From IMG/VR virus record IMGVR_UViG_3300008266_001443, positions 1 to 21,978 of that record: a DNA stretch of 21,978 bases. One strand, given 5' to 3'. Both the position numbers and the translations under genes were made by a program. The DNA comes from a virus. Positions 11,512 to 21,978 of the stretch are shown in pieces (position 1 is the first letter of the stretch; each line of letters begins with the position of its first letter). The notes under the pieces are model-generated. The model worked only from the letters and a program-made list of their open reading frames with translations, searched no databases and was not told the origin of the DNA.

Positions 11512-13371
11512 TTATAATGGTACTACTCTACCTTGAATATCAGCATTTGGATATTTTACTTCAAATATCATAGGATCTATAGATGGATAAACAACATTAT
11601 TTCTTGTAGCTCCAGATATATCATAAGCAAAATCTGAGTATCCTAGATTTGATCCTACTAAATTGTAAATATCTATATTTTTAACTGTTTGAACTCCTTC
11701 TACTCTATCTAATAAAACATAAATATCTCTTAATATTATAGGTTGATTGATTTGCCAATTACTTATTCTAAAATAAGATTGTAAAACAGAAATACAATTA
11801 GTTAATACTTGATTATTATTATAATTAGGTAATACTATAATATCAAAATTTACTCCAATATTAATAATAAAAGCATCTTTAATATTAATAGCATCATTTA
11901 TCATTCTGTATTGGGAAAGATAAGTTATTAAATTTTGTTTTAAAGCAAACGAAGCATAGTTTAATTTCTTATTAATGTCGTATGTTAAAATATATAAATC
12001 TAATATTCCAAGAGATTCTCCAGGTAATATACTTTGTAACTTTGTTGGTTCAATATATCCTTTAGATATTTCTCCATATCTAGCAGGCATACTTAATGCT
12101 CTAACTAAATAATCATCTTGGGTAACATTTCGTTGTTGTGATGCAAAATTAGCTGAGGAATTTTGTCTTATTTCTTCAATTGAATCTCCATCACCTCCTC
12201 CACTTGCTGCTTCTGGGTTTGTAACGGTTAATGAAGTATAAATTGAATTTGCTAAAGCTGTATTAGCTATATTAGGATTTAAAAAATTAACATTTCCAGA
12301 TATTCCATTTAAAGAATTAGCACTAATATTAGCTGTGGCTCCACCTCCAGTTAAATATCTAAATGTTAAAGTAGTATTTGAAGGAGCAATTCCATATGTT
12401 TTTGTATATAAGAAATTTGAAGGAGAATAAGCTGTTGTTAATTTATCTTGTTCAAATGGTAAACCAATACCTACATTATCTGGATTAGGTATTATAACTT
12501 CATCTGAGTCTGCTACTGTACCTGCACCAAATTGAATTTGCATAGTAGTAGAATTTTTTAAACGAGTAGTAAATCTACGTTGTACTTTTTTAAGTTTTAA
12601 TAAATAAGGAGTATCTCCTGATTGTTGGGATAAATTAGGATCATTAGTATTAGTATTTTTAATACTATCATAAATCATTTCTTGACCTAAATAATCTACT
12701 TCATACCATTGATTTCCTTGAGAATCAAAACAATCTAATATTCCTATTAAACTATTAGAATTTATTTCTACTGTTGCAAATTTTTCAGGAGAATTAAATG
12801 GAAAGGATATTGAATTTATAGTTGCAGATATTGCTTTTCTTGTCTTTTTTAATAAAAATGAATTAGGTGTATTTCCAGGATTTAATACTTCATATACTGT
12901 AATTTCTGTTGGATCGCCTGAGCTTGAAACTGTAAAATCTACCGGATCACTAACTAAAAAAGAATTAGATCCATTATTAGCAACAGTTGAGTTAGGTCCA
13001 ATATATAAAGCATAATCAAAATCAGGAACATAAGAACCACCAGATAGTTTAGCAGGTACTTTTTGATAAAAGTTTACATTAGTAATTGCTACACCAGTTA
13101 CATTTGGTTTATAACCAAACATATATGCTAATTCAAATAAATTATTTGATTGACGAGCAAATTGTAAATAATTTTCTTGAACTTGATTATCTAAATAAAA
13201 TGATAAAACATCACCTACATAAGCAGCCATTTCAATAAACATCATTCCTGGTGATGCTGGGCTAAAGTCATTGTATGTAGTTGGAAAATAGGTTCTAGCA
13301 TAGTCTATTAAACTTGCTCTATATTCACTAAAATCTTTATTTATGTATTTTATATTTTTATTTACAGCCAT
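11512..13371 (-). CDS. Baseplate wedge protein, gp6/J-like
   Basis: A 619-aa protein with the N-terminal signature of T4 gp6 / Mu-P2 baseplate J proteins. It starts INKDFSEYRASLIDYARTYFP, continues with a Phe-Ser-Pro-Ala-Ser-Pro-Gly-Met-Met segment at 36-44, then a long helix (FIEMAAYVGDVLSFYLDNQV) and NLFELAYMFGYKP at 77-89. The C-terminal part (LLDRVEGVQTVKNIDI) matches the dimerisation end of this family. Gp6 homodimers form the iris-like ring linking wedges around the baseplate hub, so this is a core structural component. Its partner gp25 is encoded immediately upstream with a TAATG overlap, the conserved gp25-gp6 pairing of contractile injection systems. Length is close to T4 gp6. Confidence 0.9.
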   Translation of the reverse strand: MAVNKNIKYINKDFSEYRASLIDYARTYFPTTYNDFSPASPGMMFIEMAAYVGDVLSFYLDNQVQENYLQFARQSNNLFELAYMFGYKPNVTGVAITNVNFYQKVPAKLSGGSYVPDFDYALYIGPNSTVANNGSNSFLVSDPVDFTVSSSGDPTEITVYEVLNPGNTPNSFLLKKTRKAISATINSISFPFNSPEKFATVEINSNSLIGILDCFDSQGNQWYEVDYLGQEMIYDSIKNTNTNDPNLSQQSGDTPYLLKLKKVQRRFTTRLKNSTTMQIQFGAGTVADSDEVIIPNPDNVGIGLPFEQDKLTTAYSPSNFLYTKTYGIAPSNTTLTFRYLTGGGATANISANSLNGISGNVNFLNPNIANTALANSIYTSLTVTNPEAASGGGDGDSIEEIRQNSSANFASQQRNVTQDDYLVRALSMPARYGEISKGYIEPTKLQSILPGESLGILDLYILTYDINKKLNYASFALKQNLITYLSQYRMINDAINIKDAFIINIGVNFDIIVLPNYNNNQVLTNCISVLQSYFRISNWQINQPIILRDIYVLLDRVEGVQTVKNIDIYNLVGSNLGYSDFAYDISGATRNNVVYPSIDPMIFEVKYPNADIQGRVVPL

Positions 13372-13781
13372 TATTGTATAAATGTTATTTGTGCTTGATC
13401 AGTTAAATCAGTATTTAATATAGTATAAGTAAATTTAACAGTTAATTCATTATAATCAGGATTTTCTAATATATCTAAAGTATCTAATCTTATGATAGGA
13501 AAATATATACTAATTAAATTTTGAATATTATCTTTTAAATTTTCAGTATTATTAGATGTTATTTGTTCGAATAAGTAAGCTCTTATATTAGCTCCGAATC
13601 CATTATTTAAATATCTTTCTTTTTGATTAGTTAATAAAAAGTTAATTAAATTATTTCTGATAGCATCTTTAGTTGTATATGTTGAAAAAAATACACCAGG
13701 AGCATTAAAAGGAATAGATATTCCAACCGCTGTTCCAGGTTTAGTATCTATAGGAAATATTTTTTTAGCTCCAAATGCCAT
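13371..13781 (-). CDS. Baseplate wedge protein gp25-like (GPW/gp25 family)
   Basis: At 136 aa it matches the usual size of T4 gp25 and of lysozyme-like GPW/gp25 wedge proteins. It begins FGAKKIFPIDTKPG and has the family core TNQKERYLNNGFGANIRAYL at 51-70, where the Glu-Arg pair is equivalent to the conserved EPR-type motif. The C-terminal strand-rich segment (NELTVKFTYTI) completes the fold. Gp25 binds the gp6 dimer and initiates sheath assembly around the hub. Its ATG at 13781 overlaps by one base a TAA that ends a -1-frame extension of the preceding gene, and its own stop overlaps the gp6 start (TAATG). Confidence 0.92.
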   Translation of the reverse strand: MAFGAKKIFPIDTKPGTAVGISIPFNAPGVFFSTYTTKDAIRNNLINFLLTNQKERYLNNGFGANIRAYLFEQITSNNTENLKDNIQNLISIYFPIIRLDTLDILENPDYNELTVKFTYTILNTDLTDQAQITFIQ

Positions 13782-17037: not shown

Positions 17038-17392
17038 TTTTATTATCTAAATTTTCTTGAATTTTATTTATTTCACCTAACAATTGTGCTTTTTCTTCAT
17101 CAGAAATCAATAATGCACCTTCACCACCTCCACTACTATTATCATTTGCTATACAACGCTGGATGATAGTAGCCATTTTAATAAGTTGTTCATCATTTTT
17201 AACACCTAATTCTAGATATTCTTTAATTAACGGAACAACTAAGGTAGCATCCCCAATATCATCAATTAAAGGTTTTAACTCCTCAATTAATGTAGATATT
17301 TGTCTTTCTTTTTTCTTTTGGTTTTGATAAATTTCTTGGAATAAATCTTTTAATTTTTTATCACCAAAAATATCAGAATCTAAACTACTCAT
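17030..17392 (-). CDS. Conserved helical phage protein, 120 aa
   Basis: A 120-aa, almost entirely helical protein. It begins SLDSDIFGDKKLKDLFQEIY followed by a lysine-rich coiled-coil stretch and LIEELKPLIDDIGDATLVVP, then a helix with GVKNDEQLIKMATIIQR at about 69-85. A Gly/Ser linker (SSGGGEG) separates a last helix (LLISDEEKAQLLGEINKIQ). I recall similar proteins in pelagic T4-like phages next to the spike gene, all of unknown function. Because it is translated with an 8-nt overlap into the spike, a chaperone or assembly factor for the hub is a reasonable guess only. Its start follows a 29-nt spacer after the sigma-factor gene that contains a possible late promoter. Confidence 0.7.
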   Translation of the reverse strand: MSSLDSDIFGDKKLKDLFQEIYQNQKKKERQISTLIEELKPLIDDIGDATLVVPLIKEYLELGVKNDEQLIKMATIIQRCIANDNSSGGGEGALLISDEEKAQLLGEINKIQENLDNKNG

Positions 17393-17421: not shown

Positions 17422-18123
17422 TTAAAATTTTATATATCCATTCTCTAAATAGAAAACATAACTATTTTTATAAATATCATATAGTTTATCAGCTATTTTA
17501 GTAATTTTAGGAGTTTTAGCATCTACCATTTCTCTTATATAGATATATAATGCTTTTTTATTGAATACTTCTAAGTCATCTCGTTTTCTAAATAATTCAA
17601 GTACAGCATCAGCTATTTTAGCGTCATTTTCTTTAGGAAATAATTTATATATATTTGTAGTACAATAATCAACATATAAATCTGTAAATAGAGATATTTT
17701 ATCATTATGTCCTAGTTTATCACTTGGTGAATTATTCTCTTCAATAACATATGTATGTCCATTATCTTCCTCTAAGATAGAGGCAGGTACTGAGTTGACA
17801 CGTTTTTTATAGTTTTTTTCGTTATATAAAATTAACCAACGTTTAACAATAGTCCCAAAATACGAATATGCTTTAGCACCTTTAGATGGGTCAAATAAAT
17901 GCATTTTACTAAGTAGGAATGTAATAATTTCGTGTTGTAAATCCTCAATATTCTCTACCTCAGTATAATAAAATTTAAATGTATGAATAATATTTTGAGT
18001 AAGTTTAAAAAAAGCATAATGGATTTTATCATTATAAATTCTACTACGTTCTTCTGGGTCAATACATAAATTATATGCTACAATAGCATCTTCGGTGTCT
18101 TGGGTAAAATAGTTTTTGCTCAT
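17422..18123 (-). CDS. gp55-like late RNA polymerase sigma factor
   Basis: A 233-aa protein with a region-2-like domain. The segment DLQHEIITFLLSKMHLFDPS at 61-80, then KGAKAYSYFGTIVKRWLI at 81-98, is the pattern seen in T4 and cyanophage gp55, where it binds the beta-prime coiled coil and melts the -10 box. A basic NYKKRVNSV follows at 104-112. The C-terminal third (about 185-222) is helix-turn-helix-like. It is larger than T4 gp55 (185 aa), with extra sequence after region 2. In T4, gp55 with the sliding clamp and gp33 drives transcription from TATAAATA promoters for virion genes. Here it lies just upstream of those genes. Its ATG overlaps the stop of the small membrane protein gene (TAATG). 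Confidence 0.82.
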   Translation of the reverse strand: MSKNYFTQDTEDAIVAYNLCIDPEERSRIYNDKIHYAFFKLTQNIIHTFKFYYTEVENIEDLQHEIITFLLSKMHLFDPSKGAKAYSYFGTIVKRWLILYNEKNYKKRVNSVPASILEEDNGHTYVIEENNSPSDKLGHNDKISLFTDLYVDYCTTNIYKLFPKENDAKIADAVLELFRKRDDLEVFNKKALYIYIREMVDAKTPKITKIADKLYDIYKNSYVFYLENGYIKF

Positions 18124-20041: not shown

Positions 20042-20062
20042 TTACTTAAATAATTTTTTCAT
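20042..20062 (-). CDS. Six-codon mini-ORF (MKKLFK) before the hairpin
   Basis: ATG AAA AAA TTA TTT AAG TAA lies between an AT-rich promoter-like motif (20091-20102) and the hairpin at 20008-20029. The first codons match those of the 61-aa gene at 20572 (ATG AAA AAA TTA TT). It could be a leader peptide, a decayed gene start or chance; no further evidence is visible. Confidence 0.25.
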   Translation of the reverse strand: MKKLFK

Positions 20063-20090: not shown

Positions 20091-20102
20091 TTAATATAAT
20101 AT
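20091..20102 (-). promoter_or_regulatory. Early-type AT motif (copy 6)
   Basis: The minus strand carries ATATTATATTAA, related to the ATTATATTwAA core found ahead of the other small genes. It precedes the mini-ORF/hairpin leader of the 141-aa gene. Confidence 0.4.
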
Positions 20103-20169
20103 AAATATCTAAGGACTCCAAATATTACCATGAAGCCCTCAACACTACACTACCTCCATACGTATATAC

Positions 20170-20283: not shown

Positions 20284-20397
20284 TTATTCGTTAAATAGAT
20301 CTTTACCATCGTAATCTGGGTGATTATTTTTCATGTGGTCAATACCACGTACCCAAAGTACTGAAATTATTGTTGCTAATATAATACTAACGACCAT
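20284..20397 (-). CDS. Putative single-pass membrane microprotein, 37 aa
   Basis: A longer reading from 20484 is in frame, but the ATG at 20397 is preferred. It overlaps the end of the 61-aa gene by only 11 nt and puts the hydrophobic helix at the N-terminus: MVVSIILATIISVLWVRGID, residues 1-20, followed by a polar tail (HMKNNHPDYDGKDLFNE). This is the layout of small phage membrane proteins. It may be inserted in the inner membrane with a cytoplasmic tail. No known holin, antiholin or superinfection-exclusion motif is recognised. Confidence 0.5.
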   Translation of the reverse strand: MVVSIILATIISVLWVRGIDHMKNNHPDYDGKDLFNE

Positions 20398-20572
20398 GTT
20401 GTTCGATAAGTGCTTTACGTGTTTGTTTACGAACTGCTGGGTGACGATAATCACCACGTTGATGAGGTGATACATTACGATCACGATAATGATGAGGTCT
20501 GGAAATATTCCTCATGGTTCTTGCTTGATGTTTTGTGTGGTAAGGTAATAATAATAATAATAATTTTTTCAT
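20387..20572 (-). CDS. Small basic His/Arg-rich protein, 61 aa
   Basis: The 61-aa product begins MKKLLLLLLPYHTKH, its six leucines encoded by an in-frame TTA tandem repeat (about 20546-20563), and continues with Arg/His-rich sequence (NISRPHHYRDRNVSPHQRGD). The leucine run is too short to be a convincing signal peptide, since Pro and His follow immediately. The strongly basic rest suggests nucleic-acid or phospholipid binding. It starts 15 nt after an AT motif (20588-20599) resembling the one before other small genes, which supports this start. It overlaps the 37-aa gene by 11 nt. Family unknown; a spurious ORF cannot be excluded. Confidence 0.45.
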   Translation of the reverse strand: MKKLLLLLLPYHTKHQARTMRNISRPHHYRDRNVSPHQRGDYRHPAVRKQTRKALIEQHGR

Positions 20573-20899
20573 AACTTTTATTTTTGGTTAATATAATAAA
20601 GTAAATTTGGGTAGCCAAATATACGTATATACTTTGTCGATGGTAAAGAAATTTTGGTTTTCCTTTGGTCGCGCACCTGTGAATTTTGTGCAAAATGGGT
20701 TAGTTGGAAATGTATGTGTGATATATGGGATAGGTGTGTTAGATATAAATATATACGCATCGGCATGAGCTTAACGTGTAAGATCTGTGAATTCATCATA
20801 TTCGCTTTTTACGCGGCCCCACCGTTATATGGACATCAGCGCGCATGGTCTATATATAATTGCAGTACATATACGTACGCATATATACACGAATCTCTA
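20573..20899. other. 327-nt gene-free stretch with shifted composition
   Basis: No convincing gene, tRNA or known RNA is seen here. ORFs on both strands are compositionally odd and run through the promoter motif. Part of the stretch (about 20640-20880) is visibly richer in G, C and TG/GT than its surroundings. It is dense in 6-mer palindromes (GCGCGC, GAATTC, AGATCT, CGTACG, TACGTA) and contains the perfect 12-bp palindrome ATATACGTATAT at 20619-20630. The AT motif of the 61-aa gene lies at 20588-20599. Confidence 0.5.
20588..20599 (-). promoter_or_regulatory. Early-type AT motif (copy 5)
   Basis: Minus strand TTATTATATTAA, 15 nt before the 61-aa ATG, shares ATTATATT with the other copies but diverges after the core (AACC instead of AAAT). 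Confidence 0.4.
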
Positions 20900-21076
20900 C
20901 TAACTTTTAATAGAGAACGTTGCATGCAAAAATCCATCAATCAAATCATATTCATTGTATTCCCAACCTAACGCTGCTGCTGCTTCAATCAATGCAATAT
21001 GTTTTTCAATGTTTGCTTCGCTAATATTATTTAAGCGTAAGTTGCGTTTTAATTGTTCTAATCTTTCTTTATTCAT
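20900..21076 (-). CDS. Small helical protein, 58 aa
   Basis: The start is set at the ATG at 21076 (MNKERLEQLKRNLRLNNISE), because it lies directly after the leader TTAAAACGTAAAA that also precedes the 64-aa gene. A longer in-frame reading from 21118 would run through the promoter motif. The 58 residues are a charged first helix, a second helix (ANIEKHIALIEAAAALGWEY) and an acidic end (NEYDLIDGFLHATF). No known family is recognised. Being a stand-alone gene with its own promoter-like motif and a hairpin upstream fits an early, host-directed accessory protein. Confidence 0.55.
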   Translation of the reverse strand: MNKERLEQLKRNLRLNNISEANIEKHIALIEAAAALGWEYNEYDLIDGFLHATFSIKS

Positions 21077-21095: not shown

Positions 21096-21109
21096 TTTAA
21101 ATATAATAT
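21096..21109 (-). promoter_or_regulatory. Early-type AT motif (copy 1)
   Basis: Minus strand ATATTATATTTAAA, followed by TAAATTAAAACGTAAAA and the ATG at 21076. It has the same arrangement as the copy at 21801-21814, with AT replacing the initial GC. Confidence 0.55.
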
Positions 21110-21119
21110 GAAATACAAA

Positions 21120-21140
21120 GTGAGCCTAATATTGGCTCAC
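21120..21140 (-). terminator. Hairpin after the AT-hook-like gene, possible terminator
   Basis: GTGAGCC (21120-21126) pairs with GGCTCAC (21134-21140) around a 7-nt AT loop. It is 27 nt after the AT-hook gene stop on the minus strand and is followed by TTTGTATTTC, a poor U-tract. It lies between two genes, each with its own promoter-like motif, so a weak terminator is reasonable. Confidence 0.55.
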
Positions 21141-21167
21141 CTTATACTTCACTTAATCTAAATTTAA

Positions 21168-21455
21168 TTATTTCGTAGCCGCTGCTTTACGTGCCGCTTG
21201 TTCAGCTAATCTAATTTGACGAGCACTGCCTTCAACTACTGGGCGTCCGCGTTTTAATTCAATACCACTTTTTACTTTGTCTTCTCTAGCTTTTAACACT
21301 TCTTGTCTTTTGCTTTCACTATTAACTGGTCGGCCTCGTTTACATGTACCATTCTTTCTTTTTTCTTCTAATTCGTTTAAACGTTGTTGTCTTGCTGAAT
21401 TAGGATTTACTGGTCTGCCTAATTGTGTTGTTGTTGTGTTTGTTGTGTTTGTCAT
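21168..21455 (-). CDS. Triple AT-hook-like repeat protein, 95 aa
   Basis: After a Thr/Asn-rich start (MTNTTNTTTTQ) the protein has three tandem copies of about 27 residues. Each begins with (K/L)(R)GRPV followed by a spacer, Ser-x-(Arg/Lys)-Arg/Gln and a charged helix: GRPVNPNSARQQRL, GRPVNSESKRQEVL and GRPVVEGSARQIRL. The Gly-Arg-Pro core flanked by basic residues is that of AT-hooks, which bind the minor groove of AT-rich DNA and would suit this genome. The helices between hooks (ELEEKRKNG, KAREDKVKSG) are basic. It ends in an Ala-rich tail (EQAARKAAATK). A nucleoid-like or transcription-modulating role is inferred. The start at 21455 follows motif copy 2. Confidence 0.68.
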   Translation of the reverse strand: MTNTTNTTTTQLGRPVNPNSARQQRLNELEEKRKNGTCKRGRPVNSESKRQEVLKAREDKVKSGIELKRGRPVVEGSARQIRLAEQAARKAAATK

Positions 21456-21475
21456 ATTTTTATCTTTTTTATTTA

Positions 21476-21489
21476 TTTAAATATAATGC
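21476..21489 (-). promoter_or_regulatory. Early-type AT motif (copy 2)
   Basis: Minus strand GCATTATATTTAAA, 20 nt before the AT-hook ATG. It belongs to a 31-nt block (21471-21501) identical to the one at 21796-21826. Confidence 0.6.
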
Positions 21490-21562
21490 AATTTATTTTG
21501 TGATACTAATTAATTAACTGATTTTTATTTATTTATTTTTAATTTATTTACTTAACTTACGT

Positions 21563-21576
21563 TTTAAATATAATGC
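21563..21576 (-). promoter_or_regulatory. Early-type AT motif (copy 3), with no gene directly behind it
   Basis: Minus strand GCATTATATTTAAA followed by ACGTAAG. No ATG or ORF follows before copy 2 about 75 nt further on. The gap 21456-21587 therefore holds two motif copies and AT-rich repeats only. Confidence 0.5.
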
Positions 21577-21587
21577 GATTGATTATG

Positions 21588-21782
21588 TTATCCTATTTTA
21601 TTCACTATCGTACCTTCGATTTCATAAACTAAATAATTATCGTAGAACATTTTGTTAACTCGTTCTTTAGTATACTCTTCTAATTCACATTCATAAATTT
21701 CTTCAATCAATTGTTCTAAATTATCAACAATGTAATTAAATGTAGGGTCGTTTAAATCGATAACTAAATACTGTTTTTTCAT
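21588..21782 (-). CDS. Small acidic protein, 64 aa
   Basis: The 64-aa product begins MKKQYLVIDLNDPTFNYIVD and continues with an acidic helix (NLEQLIEEIYECELEEYTKE) and a mixed C-terminus (YDNYLVYEIEGTIVNKIG). The pattern suggests a compact alpha-beta fold. It has no membrane segment and no catalytic motif. The ATG at 21782 follows motif copy 4 and the leader TTAAAACGTAAAAC, so it has its own promoter-like element. No family is recognised; an early accessory function fits the position. Confidence 0.6.
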   Translation of the reverse strand: MKKQYLVIDLNDPTFNYIVDNLEQLIEEIYECELEEYTKERVNKMFYDNYLVYEIEGTIVNKIG

Positions 21783-21800
21783 GTTTTACGTTTTAATTTA

Positions 21801-21814
21801 TTTAAATATAATGC
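21801..21814 (-). promoter_or_regulatory. Early-type AT motif (copy 4)
   Basis: Minus strand GCATTATATTTAAA, 18 nt before the ATG of the 64-aa gene, within the 31-nt block shared with copy 2. The motif looks only loosely like the Bacteroidota -7 element (TAnnTTTG), so a phage-specific element is equally likely. Confidence 0.6.
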
Positions 21815-21830
21815 AATTTATTTTGTTGAC

Positions 21831-21978
21831 CTAATCATTATATGTTTCAAAATCTTCAATTTCGTTTAATTGATCAATCATTGAATCTAAATCTTCATAC
21901 ATTTGATGTAAATCAATGTTGTGAGCTTTATCAATATTATCTACACATAAATTAGATGCTTTTTTCAATAAATCAATA
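21831..21978 (-). CDS. Small acidic helical protein, C-terminal part (5' end outside window)
   Basis: The frame is open from the right edge to TAG at 21831-21833, giving 48 visible residues (for example ASNLCVDNIDKAHN, then LDSMIDQLNEIEDFETYND). It is acidic and likely two helices. No start is visible, so the full length is unknown. It ends 17 nt before motif copy 4, in line with the pattern of short genes each followed by the next promoter-like motif. Confidence 0.6.
   Translation of the reverse strand, partial: IDLLKKASNLCVDNIDKAHNIDLHQMYEDLDSMIDQLNEIEDFETYND

Follow-up and report, generated by a model that had tools for sequence, protein, structure and literature searches.

The closest described counterparts of the elements analysed here are the PeSL (promoter early stem-loop) cassettes of T4-type phages, reportedly the subject of work by Arbiol et al. 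in 2010 and Comeau et al. in 2014. One of their defining features is a sigma-70-like early promoter; terminator activity and circular by-products also characterise them. Excerpts of one paper present PeSLs as composite promoter-terminator cassettes that are said to mediate shuffling (PMC4503421). A second point of reference is the Bacteroidota promoter, for which portions of two papers give a consensus of TTTG at -33 and TAnnTTTG at -7 (PMC6847099, PMC2483708), with the G at -5 described in the published portions as nearly invariant in F. johnsoniae promoters; portions of PMC9723704, PMC2993671 and PMC4177764 were drawn on besides. A third is the early region of the Flavobacterium phage immuto (vB_FspM_immuto, Immutovirus), where microgenes, phosphohydrolase, sigma-like protein, gp25 and gp6 follow one another as they do in our DNA, and where the same two-block element, or dyad, is found. 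Immuto differs in having GTTG for TAGG, and TATATTTAG followed by a conserved GTATCAATAATTAAAAC leader. No prior description of the cassettes reported below was found in the literature searched, which lay mostly outside subscription papers and did not include the PeSL originals.

The DNA analysed (the window) spans an entire virus record of 21,978 bases. On its minus strand it encodes a gp6-like baseplate protein (T4 gp6 type; 11512-13371), a gp25-like baseplate protein (T4 gp25 type; 13371-13781) and a 233-aa late-sigma-like protein (17422..18123; PHROG 234, a weak match with E 7e-4, and a Pfam sigma-70 region 2 match under the cut-off), upstream of which lies an array of microgenes. There were no tRNA or Rfam matches in the window, and megablast of the window against phages returned no close DNA relative. 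At the protein level, gp6 matches immuto at 45.1% across its whole length (four immuto records) and Microcystis phage Mel-JY01 at 45.4%; one uncultured phage was also matched, beyond which there were weak or partial matches only, and a search with the sigma-like protein returned the identical six records. The gp6- and gp25-like baseplate proteins, and the gp20- and gp23-like genes in the immuto annotation, indicate by sequence kinship that the window phage is T4-related. Since protein kinship and gene order are common with immuto, the host is likely to be a Flavobacterium-like bacterium.

A repeat in front of the microgenes was noted in a preliminary description of the window. Exact copies of GCATTATATTTAAA lie at 21476, 21563 and 21801 and a copy with two mismatches at 21096, all on the minus strand; the 31-base identity between 21471-21501 and 21796-21826, and the common leader TTAAAACGTAAAA behind the copies at 21096 and 21801, are likewise borne out. 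The repeat is thus real, but the motif as named is only the -7 half of the element, and a -33 half at fixed spacing had been missed. Because the bare 14-mer, allowed three mismatches, does not exceed the chance level in this AT-rich window (18 found against 22 expected), we rejected it as the unit. Records L084 and L087, found via a 95-aa protein of the array, carry the same region extended further upstream, with the motif 7 and 11 times, nearly always before a small ORF and with TAGG ahead of it; a two-block pattern was therefore tested. In the window the unit is the dyad T[AT]G-N20-TATATT[T/A]A, present at all six sites of the preliminary description; in every copy, exactly 20 nt separate T[A/T]G from the TATATTTA or TATATTAA that follows it on that strand. 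Two sites, at 20588 and 20091, had been called weaker relatives; they are real copies and more than weak ones, since both fit the full dyad with a variant -7 box. An exact 23-mer search in viral_contigs gave 0 matches. We think it probable, with fair confidence, that these cassettes are Bacteroidota-type -33/-7 promoters of single microgenes, read by the host polymerase, and that they serve also as joints for gene exchange.

The array is on the minus strand throughout. Cassette 1 (TAGG-N19-TATATTTA, 21803..21833) stands before a 64-aa ORF, which it would drive in this reading; its TAG (21833-21831), as read from the sequence, is the stop codon of an upstream ORF that runs off the window end, a truncated frame missed by the ORF caller. 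The 64-aa microgene (21588..21782) has no confident family and is overlapped at its 3' end by cassette 2 (TAGG-N19-TATATTTA, 21565..21595). Cassettes 2 and 3 (the latter TAGT-N19-TATATTTA, 21478..21508) stand in tandem with no ATG between them, a pair that is found also in L084 and L102 and that may mark either a lost gene or a double promoter. A leader of about 22 nt then leads to a 95-aa microgene (21168..21455) with three GRPV-x3-S-x-RQ repeats, related copies of which recur in the relatives' arrays. Behind it, a terminator-like hairpin of 19 pairs (21108..21152) overlaps cassette 4 (TAGG-N19-TATATTTA, 21098..21128), whose -33 element (TAGGCTCAC) is contained in the hairpin's 3' arm; a 58-aa microgene follows (20900..21076).

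The remaining two cassettes have the variant -7 box. Cassette 5 (TTGG-N19-TATATTAA, 20588..20618), with a short hairpin over its -33 box, is conserved in L084, L085, L086 and L102 and partly in L088, and is followed by a 61-aa ORF (20387..20572) with DNA-level similarity to ORFs in L084 and L102. Cassette 6 (TTGG-N19-TATATTAA, 20091..20121) precedes a 6-codon remnant (MKKLFK stop, 20042..20062). As the corresponding cassette or position in L084 and L102 leads to a 65- or 62-aa gene, the gene behind cassette 6 has been lost in the window. Further TATATTGA matches at 9735-9705 and 127-97 were not counted as cassettes; the one at 127-97, 5 nt ahead of an ATG, may be one. The preliminary description's picture of a modular array, with a control element before most microgenes, is supported by the arrays of the relatives.

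For counts across relatives, 85 loci were reduced to 21 records searched whole, 17 of which matched at one mismatch. The 19 records counted are the window, immuto and 17 of the 21 (G013 less 500 bases); G003, G005, G006 and G019 (0, 0, 2 and 0 matches) were left out. Clade consensus sequences come from 13 of the 19, and clades A-F are working groups, not a tree. Scanning T[AT]G-Nn-TATATTTA at n = 12 to 26, counted from the third base of T[AT]G, gave 143 sense-strand occurrences at n=20 as against 2-15 at the 14 other spacings, and 4 on the antisense strand at n=20; an earlier variant of the scan used TAT[AC]TTTA as the -7 box. The same spacing is the peak for TATATTA[AT] (60 against 9-22) and TATATTCA (25 against 0-5), and weakly for TATCTTTA (15 against 1-10). 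An EM motif search of the 95 bases before short ORFs, which makes no assumption of a dyad, returned it in all five clades tried, with log-likelihoods of 356-724 against 96-120 in shuffled sequences. The motif recovered from the window group was TTAGG.T..CAAA...TTATATTTA, that from G011 TTTGGC...TTATATTTA and that from immuto GTTG...TATATTTAGGTAT.

Of the 211 dyads, 186 have their -7 box outside any called gene, the uncalled share of each record being 4-31%; some uncalled microgenes are counted here as non-coding, because the caller accepts no start codon but ATG and retains the longest frame. A search before other small genes, as the preliminary description had suggested, finds the dyad at 116 of 360 small ORFs (at most 110 aa, gap at least 15) across the related records, compared with 29/176 mid-sized and 19/108 large ones. 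The 244 of 360 small ORFs without a dyad are due in part to the crudeness of the ORF caller. Immuto, whose host is Flavobacterium, has 32 forward dyads against 2 in reverse. In six unrelated or more distant phages (Mel-JY01, LR756508, FCL-2, phi14:2, crAss001 and T4) the dyad is at background, and it is therefore a trait of the immuto-like group, not of Bacteroidota phages in general.

The preliminary description had considered the motif only a loose match to Bacteroidota TAnnTTTG. The consensus G at -5 is indeed replaced by A, but as the -33 half stands at a fixed spacing, the match is better than loose. Cassettes and Bacteroidota primary sigma (sigma-ABfr) promoters share two blocks, with TTTG or TTG upstream in some clades and TA plus TTT downstream, as well as similar spacing, short leaders and no Shine-Dalgarno sequence. 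They are unlike in the A at -5, the single fixed spacing and the longer upstream block of the cassettes. By clade, the -33 box is TAGG in A-C, TTTGG in D and F, and GTTG in immuto. The simplest reading would be a phage version of the host promoters, used by the host polymerase. Sigma-70 promoters were rejected as an explanation, a scan of the window being at chance (16 found, 18.5 expected).

Between the end of the -7 box and the ATG lies an A-rich leader with a median length of 21-33.5 nt by clade. TAAAA, described as a Flavobacterium ribosome binding consensus (PMC2483708), occurs at 37-55% of starts, and SD-like hexamer cores are at chance level. Such an A-rich leader without an excess of Shine-Dalgarno sequences is as expected for Bacteroidota. 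At its other end, the cassette can meet the previous gene: of 77 TAGG cassettes, 20 have a TAG that ends a called ORF, compared with 9 of 539 other TAGG sites, and in two of seven tiled clades examined the first three cassette bases are often the previous gene's stop codon.

Hairpins were rejected as a constant part of the cassette, as they occur in a minority only. Those with z<-2 make up 15, 18, 12, 17, 29 and 44% of cassettes in clades A-F, against 4, 9, 12, 19, 13 and 6% of random stretches, an excess over control in A, B, E and F and none in C and D. The excess is clear in immuto and group F and modest in A and B, and in clade A the share with energy below -6 is the same as in the control. 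Strong hairpins that hold the -33 box are present in relatives at L084 4123 and L102 2533, and those of immuto have a run of T between the boxes.

As we envisage it, each copy would be a promoter cassette complete in itself, in a T4-related phage with a Flavobacterium-like Bacteroidota host. The -33 (T[AT]GG/TTTGG/GTTG) and -7 (TATATT[T/A/C]A) boxes at their fixed 20-nt distance would bring in the host's RNA polymerase and primary sigma factor, and would probably do so early in infection. With its start a few bases further on, transcription would yield a short A-rich leader, which Bacteroidota ribosomes could use without a Shine-Dalgarno sequence, and one microgene would be made per cassette. 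Where, in the minority, the -33 box lies inside a terminator hairpin, the previous transcript would end where the next begins. Because many gene borders carry one and the same short block, cassettes could double as stretches of homology at which microgenes are gained, lost and reordered.

A second motif, TATTTATA[AT], is distributed differently: it precedes 79 of 176 mid-sized, 30 of 108 large and 17 of 360 small genes. It is a single block on the gene-sense strand before larger, mostly structural genes, with sites at immuto structural genes, in upstream regions of the window at 17392 and 3552 (minus strand) and in group F records. Its reverse complement contains the T4 late sequence TATAAATA. 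TATTTATA[AT] is likely to be a late promoter. Because TATTTATA[AT] and the dyad differ by gene-size class, there appear to be two promoter classes, the dyad being that of the accessory microgenes. The cassette resembles the T4 late promoter TATAAATA in its AT-rich -10/-7-like box, and relatives encode a late-sigma-like protein; it is unlike it in that a second block is present, and T[AT]G-N20-TATAAATA occurs 0 times on the sense strand. Neither TATAAATA nor TATTTATA has a dyad peak in the spacing scan of the 19 records, and the T4 late motif, also at chance in the window, was rejected as a candidate.

The same boxes could instead form a phage-specific (middle or private) promoter class, read via a phage sigma factor, a coactivator or a modification of the polymerase. 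Such a factor would read TATATT[T/A/C]A with an extended T[AT]GGCTnnCAAA block, and host promoters would then not be competitors. We regard this as unlikely, though it accounts for several observations. Of 158 sites, 147 have A directly after TATATTT and 2 have G, so that A replaces the host's G at -5; conservation extends past TTTG (clades A and B have TAGG.T..CAAA, clades D and F have TTTGGC); and immuto shows no enrichment of the host-like dyad TTG-N19-TANNTTTG (1 forward, 3 reverse). Across the 19 records, TTG-TA[ACT][ACT]TTTG reaches 22 on the sense strand at n=19 (2-16 elsewhere) and 26 on the antisense strand at another spacing. A sigma-like protein is, moreover, encoded beside the array in the window, L084, L102 and immuto. 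However, this protein resembles late sigma factors in its weak PHROG 234 match, for which TATTTATA[AT] before larger genes would be the more natural target, and the -33/-7 geometry, with the TTTG of clades D and F, is that of the host promoter. In its fullest form, a private class of some 10-35 identical cassettes read at once by a phage-modified polymerase, combined with swappable microgene ends, we hold to be a tentative possibility, with odds clearly against it. If true, the class keeps the host -33/-7 geometry with A for G at -5 and an extended upstream block, so that the polymerase ignores host promoters, and the cassettes, in which terminator and stop codon are nested, serve as interchangeable ends by which microgenes are swapped like beads.

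The host-type promoter reading has further to be set against readings in which the block is no promoter at all. That the repeats are only recombination joints or duplicated remnants of gene borders would fit the breaks in gene order at cassettes and the tandem copies ahead of the 95-aa gene, but duplication would not be expected to preserve only two blocks, at a single spacing, with a diverging spacer between them (0.43 mean identity), and the dyad, always on the gene-sense strand, occurs in clades with different leaders and flanks; we consider this very improbable. Slightly less credible still is an RNA element of the 5' leader, acting in control of translation or processing. The block precedes the ATG at the median distances given above and the immuto leaders are conserved too, yet the -33 block, which often overlaps the stop codon of the gene before it, would then have to lie in a transcript from an unseen promoter, and the sequences of the two blocks suggest no mutual pairing. 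Chance in AT-rich sequence, which would agree with the 14-mer count in the window, has next to no probability: it is refuted by the excess at a single spacing and on a single strand in relatives, with reversed-pattern controls, and by the de novo motif search.

In seven records the core genes are arranged in one order, while the array ahead of them turns over. Between G017 (L084) and G020 (L102), two neighbouring gene pairs are swapped (F0/F24 and F13/F25). Among 23 cassette pairs with homologous upstream genes between records, only 2 keep a homologous downstream gene, and in 15 more pairs only the downstream gene is homologous. From these comparisons, related viruses seem to reshuffle microgenes at cassettes. 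In two G017/G020 pairs (4123/2533 and 4668/3386), the 23 nt ahead of the -7 box are identical and the genes behind are unrelated, which suggests the expected trace of exchange at a cassette. Spacer identity is 0.59 where only the upstream gene is homologous and 0.58 where only the downstream gene is, against 0.43; because the spacer follows both neighbours equally, most exchange points cannot be placed within the cassette. The -7 box was not retained as a general exchange point: two pairs fit, and the averages do not decide.

The likeness to PeSLs lies in putative promoters, in part combined with a terminator-like hairpin, at many small-gene borders in a variable region of a T4-related phage, and in gene order that seems to shuffle at the cassettes, the order breaks being read here from sequence only. 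The cassettes differ in having a Bacteroidota -33/-7 promoter that is not sigma-70-like, a hairpin in a minority only, where it overlaps the -33 box or spacer, and a -33 box that can be the previous gene's stop codon. By analogy, they would work like PeSLs with a different promoter sequence and, only in part, a hairpin. Promoter-terminator cassettes that serve in shuffling may thus have arisen with very different promoter sequences. The dyad can also be used as a sequence rule to locate accessory microgenes, together with their likely promoters, in an abundant uncultured group of T4-related aquatic phages (at least 600 candidate stretches matched in one scan). To our knowledge, few Bacteroidota promoters are known, and the cassettes offer one-gene promoter parts for this group. 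A test is possible in the cultured pair of immuto and Flavobacterium sp. LMO8.

Several minor observations concern the surroundings of the cassettes. The GRPV-repeat protein family is present in the window, L084, L102, L103 and L089, with up to two copies per array; it had no Pfam or PHROG match above the cut-off, and by eye its repeats look AT-hook-like. A block of about 320 bases without a convincing ORF is shared by the window (20570-20894, minus strand), L084 (6096-6398), L102 (5212-5523), L085, L086 and L088. It is about 80-87% identical among close relatives (BLAST hits reach past the block) and contains TATATACGTATA-like palindromes. A conserved RNA structure was not supported for this block, with an unfavourable covariation term (+3.56) and two-sided changes in 3 of 62 pairs; it could be an origin or regulatory DNA. 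Finally, Mel-JY01 (PP395634) is kin to immuto and the window by gp6 (45%) and the sigma-like protein (36%), its stated host is a cyanobacterium, and its dyad counts are at background (5 and 4, control 6 and 7). This host label may deserve a check.
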